Shown here: positions 32,225-37,617 of the stretch, piece by piece
Layout: the number at the start of each line of letters is the position of its first letter
Position numbering within the stretch: position 1 is the first letter of the stretch
NCBI RefSeq assembly: GCF_006716645.1
Contig: NZ_VFPL01000001.1
Location: 4,650,001-4,714,000 of the forward strand
DNA: 64,000 nt
Direction: 5' to 3'
Source: Arcticibacter tournemirensis
GTDB taxonomy: Bacteria; Bacteroidota; Bacteroidia; Sphingobacteriales; Sphingobacteriaceae
Program-made: the position numbers and the translations under genes
The notes under the pieces: model-generated
Database searches by the model: none
Seen by the model: only the letters and a program-made list of their open reading frames with translations
What the model was told of the DNA's origin: nothing

Positions 32225-33120
32225 TTAACCGCTACCCTCAGCTTTGCACTCCTCGCTCTGCTGTTCTCTTTAATCTCCTCCTCTGATGCCGTCTTCGCCT
32301 TACGGGTCACGGATTCAAAAGGCTTAATTTCATTTCCATAAAAATCCTTCTCCACCTCGCCACGAAACTTACCCTTTGCGATAAAATTCTTCACTAGCCT
32401 GTCCTCCAGCGAATGGTACGACATTATTACCAGTCGGCCGCCAGGCCTGAGAACTTCTGCCGTCTGCAATAAGAACTCCTGCAAAGCCTCCAGCTCCTGA
32501 TTCACTTCTATCCGCAACGCCTGGAACACCTGTGCCAGATATTTATTTTCCTTACCTCTCGGAATATGTTTTTTAATCACTTCCTTAAATTCGTCAACCG
32601 TCCCGATGGTCTTATTCAATCGCGAGGTAACAATCGTCTTTGCCAGCGACTTCGCATTCTGAATCTCTCCGTAAATGCCAAAGATCTTGTGTAACTGATC
32701 TTCCGAATAAGAATTGATTACTTCGCGAGCCGTTAAAGAAGCCGACTGATCCATCCTCATATCCAGATCAGCATCAAACCTGATAGAAAACCCCCGCTCT
32801 GGCTGATCAAACTGGTGCGATGAAACACCAAGATCAGCCAGAATACCATCCACAGGCATCACCCCATACAAGCGGCAATAATTCTTCAAAAAGCGGAAGT
32901 TCTGATCTATAAAGGTTAACCGATCATCATTTGGAATATTCTGTTTGGCATCTTCATCCTGGTCAAATGCCAGCAATCGCCCACCTGTTCCCAGCCGTTT
33001 CAGAATTTCATTCGAATGTCCCCCTCCTCCGAAAGTAACATCTACATAAACACCGTCTGACTTAATTGAAAGCGCATCAATACACTCATTAAGCATTACA
33101 GGAGTATGATATTTAAGCAT
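32218..33120 (-). CDS. rsmH: 16S rRNA (cytosine-1402-N4)-methyltransferase RsmH
   Basis: This 300-residue methyltransferase modifies C1402 of 16S rRNA and is the usual second gene of dcw clusters. The ATG at 33120 gives MLKYHTPVMLNECIDAL, the standard N-terminus; a frame from 33138 adds six residues but overlaps mraZ more. The SAM-binding motif is YVDVTFGGGGHSNEIL (about 27-42), and DLGVSSHQFDQPERGFSIRF (about 102-121) is the family signature. HSLEDRLVKNF is in the C-terminal part. It overlaps mraZ by 8 bp. Confidence 0.97.
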   Translation of the reverse strand: MLKYHTPVMLNECIDALSIKSDGVYVDVTFGGGGHSNEILKRLGTGGRLLAFDQDEDAKQNIPNDDRLTFIDQNFRFLKNYCRLYGVMPVDGILADLGVSSHQFDQPERGFSIRFDADLDMRMDQSASLTAREVINSYSEDQLHKIFGIYGEIQNAKSLAKTIVTSRLNKTIGTVDEFKEVIKKHIPRGKENKYLAQVFQALRIEVNQELEALQEFLLQTAEVLRPGGRLVIMSYHSLEDRLVKNFIAKGKFRGEVEKDFYGNEIKPFESVTRKAKTASEEEIKENSRARSAKLRVAVKL

Positions 33121-33577
33121 CCGCCCTCCTTCCTGCACTGCCCATTACTTCCTCTGCCAGAAGCGCAAAGTTTTCAGGCTCATTATCCATCTGGGCATCA
33201 TAAGCATCCTTAGCCCAAACTTCTATTTTATTCAACTGCGAGGATAGAACTGCATCGGCAGCAATTCCTGCATATTCCAGCAGCGACTTCGGTAATAACA
33301 CACGACCCGCTGCATCAAGAGCAAGATCTGTCGCACCTCTTGTAAAATAACGAATGAAATCTCTCGTCTTCTTCTCGTACTGATTCAACTTACTCAGATC
33401 TTCCATTATCTTATCCCACTCTTTCCTGCTGTAAATCACCAGATGCTTCTCAAAACCTCGATTCACAACCAACCCATCTCTCTCAACCTCAGGCATTTGC
33501 TTCCTAAGTCCGGCTGGTATCATCAGCCGCCCTTTGGTATCAAGCTTGCATTCAAATTCGCCTAAGAAATGAGACAT
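33113..33577 (-). CDS. mraZ: Transcriptional regulator MraZ
   Basis: This 154-residue DNA-binding protein contains two AbrB-like swapped-hairpin halves: LGEFECKLDTKGRLMIPAGL (4-23) and RGATDLALDAAGRVLLPKSL (about 79-98), each with the DxKGR or DxAGR core. MraZ binds repeats upstream of its own gene and represses the dcw operon in characterised bacteria. Three TGG repeats at 10-bp spacing lie 44-66 bp upstream of this start. It is the first gene of the cluster, followed by rsmH with an 8-bp overlap. Confidence 0.97.
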   Translation of the reverse strand: MSHFLGEFECKLDTKGRLMIPAGLRKQMPEVERDGLVVNRGFEKHLVIYSRKEWDKIMEDLSKLNQYEKKTRDFIRYFTRGATDLALDAAGRVLLPKSLLEYAGIAADAVLSSQLNKIEVWAKDAYDAQMDNEPENFALLAEEVMGSAGRRADA

Positions 33578-33643: not shown

Positions 33644-33839
33644 CAAAAAGTTTTCAACAGGATAAAATTTTTCTTTTTATACCACCTTACCCCTCTAAAG
33701 CCATACGTCGCCGGGGTTCTATAAATGGCGCAAATAGAGATAAGGAACAAAACTATTCCCACTTTTTTCAGGTTTTATGATTGGAATGATCCTGGATTAC
33801 GAGTGATATGAATTGGAACAGGTTCGTCCCTCGCTCGGG

Positions 33840-33942
33840 GTGAGTGCACAGTGAGTGCACGGTGAGAGCACGGTGAGTGCACCTTTTTCCGGCGAAAGGT
33901 GCACTCATGGTGCACTCATGGTGCACTCACTGTGCACCCACC
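33840..33942. repeat. 11-bp-period inverted repeat array (GTGAGTGCACN / GTGCACTCANN)
   Basis: Four 11-bp units close to GTGAGTGCACN (33840-33883) are followed by a 15-nt spacer and four inverted units (33899-33942), with a partial fifth after. The 44-bp arms match at 38 positions. Each unit contains the palindrome GTGCAC or a variant. It lies in the 454-bp gene-free gap upstream of mraZ. It is not CRISPR-like: there are no spacers within the arms. Confidence 0.9.
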
Positions 33943-34031
33943 GTGCTCACATCCCGAAACATGTGATAAGAGGGCCAGAACGATTAGGGAAAAAGAGGCA
34001 GATGATTCTGGTCCGCTATCAGGCTATATGG

Positions 34032-36059
34032 CTATAAGGAAGACGTAACTTGTCTGACAAGGCCGTTAACTTTTACTTTAACTTTTCTCTTAAGGGGCGA
34101 TGTAATAGTATAGGAAGTTATATTTCCGTTTTTCCATTTAAAACCAACAGTAAAACCGCCCTCAGCCTTCATTCCCTTTACCTCTCCTTCGACTTTCCAT
34201 TCATCTGGTATAGCAGGGAGAAGATCAATATAACCGGCATGGCTTTGCAGCAACATTTCTCCAATCCCGGCAGTTCCTCCAAAATTCCCGTCTATCTGAA
34301 AGGGCGGCCCGGCAGATAAAAGGTTTGGATAAACACCTCCCCCAGCACCATAATTAATATCCGTTCTAATAGTTGGTTTCATTAACTCCCTGTATAACTT
34401 AAAAGCCCGGTTACCATCGTGTAATCTTGCCCAAAAAAGCAATTTATAAGCAATTGACCAACTCGGACCGTCATCCCTTCTTACATTTAAGCTCTTTCTG
34501 CATGCTTCAGCCAGCTTAGGGGTTTCGTCGGGGGTTATCAGCGATGCGGGATATAATCCATACAAGTGAGAGATATGCCTGTGCTGCGGGTCGGTTTCCT
34601 TATAATCGTCCATCCACTCCATTAATCTTCCATCAGCAGCTACCTGTCCGACCGGCGGGAGGTGGGGCATTATTTCCTGTAGTTGTTTTCGGAAAGATTC
34701 ATCGGTTGCAAGCAGGCGCGAGGCCTCTATAACGTTAGTGAACAGCTCACGGACAATCTGATTATCGATTGCCGGCCCCGCGCAAACGCTGGCAGTTTTT
34801 CCGTTGGGAAGATAAAAAGTGTTCTCTGGCGACGAAGAAGGCGAAGTAACCAGCCAGCCAGTTTTTTTATCCTTTACTAACATGCTGCTATAAAACTGCG
34901 CAGACCCTTTGATCACGGGATAGATGCTTTTTAAATAATTCTTGTCAAGCGTATAGGCATAGTGCATCCATAAATTATTGCAAAGCCAGCCAGAGCCAGC
35001 CTTTGTGATACCCCACGAAGCACTTTCGCCCGGTTCTGTAAATCCCCATACATTGGTGATCACATGTGCTACCCAGCCCCCGGCATTATAATAGGCTTTT
35101 GCGGTCTTTTGGCCTTGAAGTACGAGCCCTTTCACGAGGTCGGCAAGTGGAAGATTAAGTTCTGAAAGATTTGCTGCCTCAACTGGCCAATGATTCATTT
35201 GAACATTCACATCGAGATGATAGTCGCCATTCCACGGAGTGCGGATCTGATTTGCCCAAAGCCCCTGAAGATTGGGAGGAAGTAATCCCACCCTGGTACT
35301 GCTGATACTGAGGTATCGGCCAAACTGATAAAAAAGCACCGGTAATCCCGCATCCGATCGCGGATCATCATGAAACCGATTAATACGAACATTTGTAGGA
35401 AGCGAATCAGCATTCGTGCTGCCAATTGAGAGATACAGGCGGTTAAACAATTTCCGAAATTTCGCGACATGTTGTTTTAATTGGTTCTCGTAGCTTTTGT
35501 TCAAGGTTTTGTTTATCTCATCCTGCACCTTTTTTTCAAATGACAAATTTCTGAAATCGGTAGCGGCGCTTATGATTAATAGCACTTCGTCGGCATTTTC
35601 TATACGGAGAAAATCACTACCTGTAATCAAGCTCCCATTTTTCAATACAGGCCTGACCTTAGCAAGGTATCTCATACCTTTACCATCGGTCCCGTTATCG
35701 AGCTGGCCTGACATTTCAAGCATCCCGTCAGCAACAAGGGTTACCGACCGCTCCGGCCTGGTTAAAGAGACTGTAAAATTAAGCTGTCCGGGTTTATCCG
35801 CGGTGAGCCTGATAAGACTTACGTCATCTCCGAAACTTGTAAAATATTCTCTTTTATATTTTACGCCATTTAATGAATATGAGCAGGAGGCAAGTGCTTT
35901 ATCTATCGAAAGCCCGCGGTAGTATTTTTGGCCTTCGACGGACGGCTGCTTACCCTCTCCGTTGTAAGTAAAATCGAGCCGGAGGTCTCCCAAAAACCTG
36001 AAAACATCCCCATTGAGCACCTCCGGAACCTTCTCCTCTGCAGATAAATGATTGGTCGA
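34032..36059 (-). pseudogene. GH95 alpha-L-fucosidase-family fragment, N-terminus missing
   Basis: About 675 residues match the GH95 family of inverting alpha-L-fucosidases/galactosidases, but the usual 780-800 residues are not reached: the signal peptide and first 100 or so residues are absent. The frame opens at 36059 just after a stop and continues into FRFLGDLRLDF, a block normally internal in GH95. WNGDYHLDVNVQMNHWP holds the active-site region; characterised members read His-x-Asn-x-Asn where this reads His-x-Asp-x-Asn. KETDPQHRHISHLYGLYP is the second catalytic block. A GTG at 36020 would be the first possible start. The 5' side runs into a truncated susC in another frame, so the gene is probably non-functional or mis-assembled. 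Confidence 0.8.
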
Positions 36060-37617
36060 TTAACTTGTACGACAACTGGGAGTCGAAATAAGAATATCTG
36101 TTGGTATTGAATATCCCTCTAAACTTCAGCCCCTTCGTAAAGAACTCTAAATTCTGGTTCAGCTCAAACTGGGCTGACATGCGCGACTCCGACGAGTTTT
36201 TATGCCCTCTCAGCAAAGCGGCATAAGGATTATTATACAATATGCTGTTGTCATTCGTACCTCCGGCGGTACCTGTATTTCCGAATAAAATATGTTTAGC
36301 ATTTAAATTTGCTTCATCAGCCGGGTAATAAGCAGGAAAAAGTACCGGACTAGTATGGATAGCTACATTATAAAGATCGGATGCAAAAGAACCGTCGGCA
36401 GTGATTGGTCCATTATATTCACTGAACGTTCCCGAAAGCCTCACAACCATTTCGGTGGACTTCGTAATATTCACGTTTACATTCGAACGTAACTGGTAAT
36501 TTTTAAACTTAACGTTATTGTCATTGTTGTTACGCTCGTCTGTTTTCAAAACACCATTGTCAACATTATAAGCACCGGTTATGTAATACCGGGCAACACC
36601 GCCACCTCCATTTATACTGAGATTATTTCGCTGGGTAGTTGCCGTTTTCTTAAATAAAAGATCAAGCCAATCAACCGCAGGGTATACGTATGGATTACTT
36701 CCGGGCGTTCCTTCCAGCGTGGCCTGCGTGTTTCTAATCTTAGTTGGAGAGAAAGGCAGGGGAAGTTTAGGATCGCGTGTGAGAGAAGCCTCGTTATAAA
36801 GGTTCATATATTCAATAGGCCCGATGAGATCCAGTGTTCTGGTCGATTGCGAGGAAGAGAATTCGGAGCGGAAACTGATTTTGGCAGGCCCCTCCTTCCC
36901 TTCTTTTGTGCTGACAAGGATAACGCCGTTCGCTCCTCTCGCGCCGTACAGCGATGTCGCGCTTGCATCCTTCAGTATAACAAAACTGGCTATATCGTCA
37001 ACGTTTAACCTGGCCAGATCATTAGCAGACAACTCGACGTTGTCGATTAATATCAAGGGGTCTCTTTTATACCCGAATGTAGTTACCCCCCTGATAAAAA
37101 ACGAAGCGTTATCCTGTCCCGGCTGTCCCGAACGTTGATAACCAATTACTCCGGCAATCTGGCCGGCAAGAGCAGTAGTAAGATTACTGGCCGGAACTTT
37201 CAGATCAGAAGGCCTTACTGAGGTAACAGATCCCACGATAGCCTCTCTCCTTTGTTTCTGGCTGAAGGCAGTGATCACCACTTCCTGCATTTGCGAAGTA
37301 GATTCCTTCAAAATAATATTAACTGTTTTTTGTCCTTCAGTCAGCGTAACTCTCTGTTGAGTAAAACCAACAAAAGAAAAGAGCAGAACCACACCTGGCT
37401 CAACGTCAAGTACAAATTTTCCATTAAGGTCTGTGGTTGTGCCTATTCCTTTCTTGTTCTCAGCGATAACACTTACCCCGGGAAGAGCTTGTTTTGAAGT
37501 ATCTGTAACAGTTCCTGTTACTGTGATCTTTGGAACCTGACTGAAAACATTTGTGCTGATTATACTGCATAAAACCAGAAAGCATATGCAGAGAGCAAAA
37601 TGATAAAATAGTCTCAT
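36060..37617 (-). pseudogene. SusC-like TonB-dependent receptor, 5' fragment
   Basis: The first about 520 residues of a SusC/RagA-type receptor are present: signal peptide (about 1-26), carboxypeptidase-D-like regulatory domain (ITVTGTVTDTSKQALPGVSV, about 30-49), plug domain (IRGVTTFGYKRDPLILIDNV, about 172-191, and KDASATSLYGARGANGVILV) and early barrel strands. Full proteins are about 1000 residues. After about SYFDSQLSYKL the frame leaves receptor sequence and reads GH95 DNA in the wrong frame until a stop at 35950. The rest of the receptor and any susD are missing. Its promoter region carries the same operator pair as the intact susC, so it was once part of that regulon. Confidence 0.85.

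Follow-up and report, generated by a model that had tools for sequence, protein, structure and literature searches.

The window analysed here is the whole 64-kb stretch C1:4650001–4714000 of a 5.66-Mb genome (G000). Between mraZ and a glycoside-hydrolase-like ORF, it contains a large palindromic array of 11-bp units with the following features:

33113–33577, minus strand: mraZ, with its start 263 bp from the hairpin; a neighbour only
33835–33839, no strand: left foot TCGGG, pairing with the right foot
33839–33942, no strand: palindromic array of four GTGAGTGCACN-type units, a 16-nt centre and four inverted units
33883–33898, no strand: 16-nt centre CTTTTTCCGGCGAAAG
33943–33952, no strand: decayed fifth inverted unit CGTGCTCACA
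33953–33957, no strand: right foot CCCGA
34032–36020, minus strand: glycoside-hydrolase-like ORF, named by eye from the sequence, ending about 90 bp from the hairpin; a neighbour only

The forward units start at positions 33840, 33851, 33862 and 33873 and the inverted units at 33899, 33910, 33921 and 33932, with a spacing of exactly 11 bp in both arms. The arms (33839–33882 and 33899–33942) are complementary at 38 of 44 positions, as stated in an earlier note on this DNA, which gave the loop as 15 nt instead of 16 nt. The same note described four plus four 11-bp units, which is correct, and a GTGCAC palindrome in each of them, which is absent from one forward unit, GTGAGAGCAC. When the centre is allowed to pair, the arms extend to 48 nt with 88% complementarity around an 8-nt loop, and the decayed fifth unit together with the TCGGG/CCCGA foot enlarges the hairpin to 33835–33957. 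The folding energy as DNA, computed for one strand, is −50.9 kcal/mol (z = −8.6), a stability reached by none of 200 shuffles. Among inverted repeats of at least 30 nt, the hairpin is the longest and strongest in the 64 kb, and the 11-bp unit occurs nine times in the window against 1.6 expected occurrences (at most one mismatch). The hairpin is not a product of chance. According to the folding calculation, its extrusion as a cruciform would be energetically possible.

A SusC-like ORF at 35950–37617, apparently truncated or carrying a frameshift, overlaps the hydrolase-like ORF at the latter's start, which fits the broken glycan locus (34032–37617) that had been noticed beside the hairpin. A rearrangement hot spot tied to this locus and the dcw cluster had also been proposed; this idea is not supported, as the hairpin family occupies many unrelated intergenic sites.

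A genome-wide search with a two-unit pattern (at most two mismatches) gave 26 matches in five places, and the reversed pattern gave none. Four of the five hairpin copies are solo and intergenic, including that of the window. The fifth, at C1:4287499, precedes a two-gene operon by about 110 bp; this locus is 396 kb outside the window. The operon consists of orfA, a name coined here for the gene of a 280-residue protein without a family match, and its downstream partner, which encodes a DUF6266 protein. All five copies are built alike: units are followed by a 16-nt centre with CTTT...AAA and then by inverted units, and most copies have a TTCGG/CCGAA foot, which is similar to the TCGGG/CCCGA foot of the window copy. 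The centre length of 16 nt and the CTTT...AAAG ends are kept in nearly all family members, whereas the number of units differs among copies. Three of the solo copies are alike beyond the hairpin, over about 190–210 bp in all. The count of the unit in the genome and in relatives that the earlier note had called for thus yielded five copies here and further ones in the relatives, so that the array is not unique. Of the mobile repeat family with variable unit number that it had envisaged in intergenic gaps, the dispersed family is real; movement itself was not caught.

Elsewhere in the genus, the unit type of the window is present only in G001, the contigs of which match Pararcticibacter amylolyticus FJ4-8, and is absent from the other four genomes. 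G001 holds about 20 copies of two subtypes, related copies having 250–280 bp in common, and one copy of each subtype is located directly upstream of orfA and DUF6266 genes. A search of about 85,000 genomes with a pattern of the centre flanked by a unit to its left and right found a single copy outside Pararcticibacter, in Pedobacter frigoris; this hairpin, identified from the DNA pattern alone, is 97 bp upstream of an OrfA gene. The exact-pattern matches outside these two genera that were inspected resemble unrelated repeats or chance. Several contigs of Prevotella sp. MAG RUI435 (L072, L075, L081) contain 22-bp direct repeats AGTGCACTCAAAAAATATTTCC, apparently of a different repeat family.

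If the linked copies and the dispersed ones form one family, dispersed copies of their own types are to be expected in the four genomes that lack the GTGCAC type. We built a covariance model from 24 hairpins that included all class I unit types, and it was therefore not tuned to one type per genome. With this model, every one of the six genus genomes and five further genera of Sphingobacteriaceae proved to hold dispersed copies; there were 25–48 matches per genus genome at E ≤ 0.01, both strands counted, which corresponds to about 12–24 sites. In each of the six genomes, the unit type of the dispersed copies that were read agrees, by eye, with that of an orfA-linked copy. Both are of the GTGAGTGCAC type in this genome. 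The dispersed copies fetched from G002, G003 and G005 have GTGAGGCCAC/GTGATGCCAC units, as in their linked copies; a GTCC type, also present in these three genomes, resembles the hairpins of class II orfA genes. The five solo copies fetched from G004 have ATRAGCCTAC and AATGAAGCCRC units, as in its two linked copies.

All eight orfA–DUF6266 loci that were found have an array of the hairpin architecture upstream, one of them collapsed. Often the unit differs from that of the window: it is GTGATGCCAC/GTGAGGCCAC at loci L188 and L203 (collapsed in L222), ATAAGCCTAC/ATGACCCTAC at L226, and AATGAAGCCRC at L227. The hairpin is absent from DUF6266 loci in general. Each of the six genus genomes encodes OrfA in several copies (9–27 matches), and the protein occurs in 50 of 121 genomes and 14 of 25 genera of the family. 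In the other genera, 16 of 24 orfA genes are preceded within 400 bp by an array with a best period of exactly 11, whereas no such arrays were detected in the controls (0/24 coding, 0/24 downstream and 0/480 shuffles). The consensus of these arrays is RTGAGTCCRNN, in many cases with TTTT...AAAA and an inverted unit after it. In many genera the arrays precede orfA by 145–280 bp; at many class II orfA genes the hairpins are only weak. Hairpins at E ≤ 1e-5 are present in 21 of the 121 family genomes, 20 of which encode OrfA (Fisher 2e-8); with the own genus excluded, OrfA is present in 14 of 15 hairpin-bearing genomes (Fisher 3.5e-6); the genomes behind both values are not phylogenetically independent. 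Copies outside the genus are built of RTGAGTCC units, and several have a CTTCG/CGAAG foot; of the 15 that were fetched, 14 have no OrfA within 1.5 kb. The window hairpin almost certainly belongs to a dispersed, orfA-linked repeat family.

Each of the 54 dispersed copies that were classified by simple ORF calling is intergenic. The neighbouring genes are in tandem in 26 cases, convergent in 15 and divergent in 13, as expected without a preference, which speaks against the copies acting in general as terminators or promoter operators. At least seven hairpin sites are common to the closely related species G002 and G005. The hairpins (89–95%) and flanks (80–96%) of these sites are about equally diverged, and the copies are therefore not very active. 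Hairpin sites are hardly common to distant species. At the site L304/L289, the flanks are homologous on both sides and the unit type differs (57.6% versus 88%), indicating that the array was exchanged in place. At one common site, G005 has lost 81 bp of the palindrome. The L300 site in G005, considered as an empty site, is actually a collapsed array, and L029/L328 are not orthologous, with hairpins on opposite sides of the shared gene. A search with the joined flanks of 11 copies gave no informative match, the relatives being too diverged, and no clean empty site or target duplication was obtained at the copies examined. Related copies show no evident terminal inverted repeat where their common sequence ends. 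A hairpin of a different unit type in G003 is also located upstream of mraZ (C1:399551–399630; L107:1091–1170), about 330 bp from the start; the sequence around it is not alignable with the window, which leaves it at most a candidate orthologue of the window copy.

In the alignment of arms, 87.8% of cells pair, compared with 78.2% in shuffles, and both partners have changed in 25 of 36 pairs, compared with 14.7 in shuffles; the structure was named from the same sequences, which is part of the reason why the sliding control favours it. Within the inner 24 pairs, one-sided changes and G-U intermediates are nearly absent. This co-variation is more consistent with a symmetrical DNA site, or with template switching that corrects the palindrome, than with an RNA helix, and favours a role at the level of the DNA.

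OrfA has no convincing match in Pfam, NCBIfam, PHROGs, PDB sequences, PDB folds or viral folds, and none was found in IMG/VR. No family or fold of DNA-binding proteins, nucleases or transposases emerged from the sequence and fold searches. The predicted structure of OrfA, calculated from three sequences, has helices followed by a beta-sandwich (pLDDT 61, pTM 0.60), and comparison of this low-confidence model gave weak Ig-like matches only. The order of elements in the DUF6266 model (pLDDT 59) is similar. Homology of the two proteins was not accepted, since the profile comparison probability of 27% is weak and suggestive at most. To the extent that such poor models allow, OrfA and DUF6266 look unlike a transposase. 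Class II copies of orfA in G000 (L170–L187) are near-identical, up to 99.3% over 1.5 kb, in unrelated flanks; the similarity often ends at the stop codon, and no target duplication was seen. OrfA as the transposase of IS-like elements was considered because of these copies and rejected for want of a fold or motif for catalysis.

Based on the placement, linkage and unit types of the copies, an explanation of the window hairpin can be proposed. In it, the hairpin is a solo copy, non-autonomous, in a family of palindromic arrays whose 11-bp units are spaced by helical turns. The unit sequence is particular to each lineage, and a copy of that type directly precedes a resident orfA, which in the genus is usually followed by a DUF6266 gene. 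The units may be DNA sites, one per helical turn, for a cognate factor, the simplest candidate for which is the product of orfA and/or the DUF6266 gene, or its regulator. The linked copy would place orfA beside its own putative sites, and the dispersed copies would form a repeat population that is particular to the lineage and persists for as long as the lineage has the gene, in the manner of REPINs with RAYTs. Candidate routes for the copying of arrays and the rewriting of units are copying of 190–280-bp segments, gene conversion and template switching. We consider this reading as a whole, from the solo copy with its lineage-specific unit to the linked copy and the cognate factor, somewhat probable. 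Phasing, linkage and type agreement give an even chance that a cognate factor binds the units, and the multi-site binding array suggested in the earlier note is a plausible part of the explanation. That OrfA or DUF6266 themselves bind the units and drive their spread is a more doubtful step. Equally tentative is the idea that the two constitute a repeat-maintaining system without a known transposase, which would recognise its own unit, act on its own gene, and spread or rewrite arrays, so that unit and protein co-evolve.

The family resembles REP/REPIN–RAYT systems in its population behaviour. Both have palindromic intergenic repeat populations with a resident linked gene; here, the population is dispersed and the linked gene is, by eye, specific to the repeat type. 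Species with several repeat families have repeat-specific linked genes in RAYT systems (PMC3733652), a situation paralleled in G001 and G004. RAYTs belong to the Y1 tyrosine transposases, and REPs, 20–40 bp long, carry GTAG (PMC3733652, PMC8049555), whereas the arrays described here are about 80–120 bp long and built of 11-bp units, and the linked gene is of uncharacterised fold. The family fails two defining tests of such systems: the Y1 transposase (PF01797) was found in none of the six genus genomes, with five control genomes positive, and three of the five G000 copies have neither a GTAG nor a CGTC tag within 25 nt, one having CGTC and one GTAG. An ordinary REP/REPIN or MITE, that is, a transposon remnant mobilised by Y1 (RAYT) or another known IS transposase, would account for dispersed, palindromic, intergenic copies, the related ones of which share 190–280 bp, but is unlikely given the lack of a Y1 transposase in the six genus genomes, the inconsistent foot and the unit-type agreement with orfA-linked arrays that it leaves unexplained. 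Palindromic REPs with a CGTC tag and without a dedicated transposase are known also in Bacteroidetes (PMC3733652); unlike the arrays here, they are short single stem-loops with no 11-bp units and no orfA link. According to the part of its description consulted, the BrickBuilt MITE of Porphyromonas gingivalis is always intergenic, with tandem units in a short dispersed element (PMC4596501). It is thus similar to our arrays, also in belonging to Bacteroidota, but that part describes 23-nt direct repeats in one species, leader and tail units, and no linked orfA-like gene.

A conserved operator array acting on its neighbours, here mraZ and the dcw cluster, would agree with the 11-bp phasing, with the window copy upstream of mraZ, and with the arrays upstream of orfA genes in many genera. 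Linked copies are consistently upstream, but solo copies have no orientation preference, their sites are hardly shared by distant species, and the mraZ gap of G004, with the same neighbouring genes as in the window, lacks any hairpin, all of which makes this role improbable. Iteron arrays of plasmid and phage origins have several sites about one or two helical turns apart, often beside the gene of the binding protein. The arrays here differ in being chromosomal, dispersed and palindromic about a conserved centre, and OrfA has no match to an initiator or DNA-binding domain. The strong predicted hairpin might suggest a structured RNA leader, a processing site or a terminator; however, substitutions in the inner pairs affect both partners and hardly ever pass through G-U, divergent genes flank 13 of the 54 copies, and Rfam returned sub-threshold microRNA matches and no family match, so that an RNA element is highly improbable. 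Slippage and template switching could make and correct units and palindromes without a binding factor. Such a neutral product of replication would explain collapsing arrays, the site that switched unit type between unchanged flanks, and co-variation without selection. It leaves unexplained why arrays are linked to orfA in many genera, why the period is strictly 11 bp and why hairpins are rare in genomes without OrfA, and we regard it as quite unlikely.

The reading of the hairpin as a solo copy of an orfA-linked family ties the repeats to two uncharacterised protein families widespread in Sphingobacteriaceae. It would provide a second, apparently independent example of a REPIN-like repeat population living with a resident gene, make it possible to test if a transposase is required for such partnerships in the first place, and give, with the DNA site, an initial lead to what OrfA and DUF6266 do. 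The literature searched, with most subscription journals outside its scope, points to a partnership not described before and names DUF6266 in no paper.

Short tandem arrays were also observed upstream of 16 of 30 DUF6266 genes from many genera (L140–L169). Their units are unlike those of orfA, and their best period is mostly 10 or 11, in some cases 21 or 22, which are multiples of the helical turn. G000 contains another dispersed repeat of about 135 bp (CTTTTTTCTTTGACCGCAAAGAAAAAAGC...) in about a dozen copies, at sites that include C1:3418405, C1:821076, C1:68547, C1:1704032 and C2:444570.
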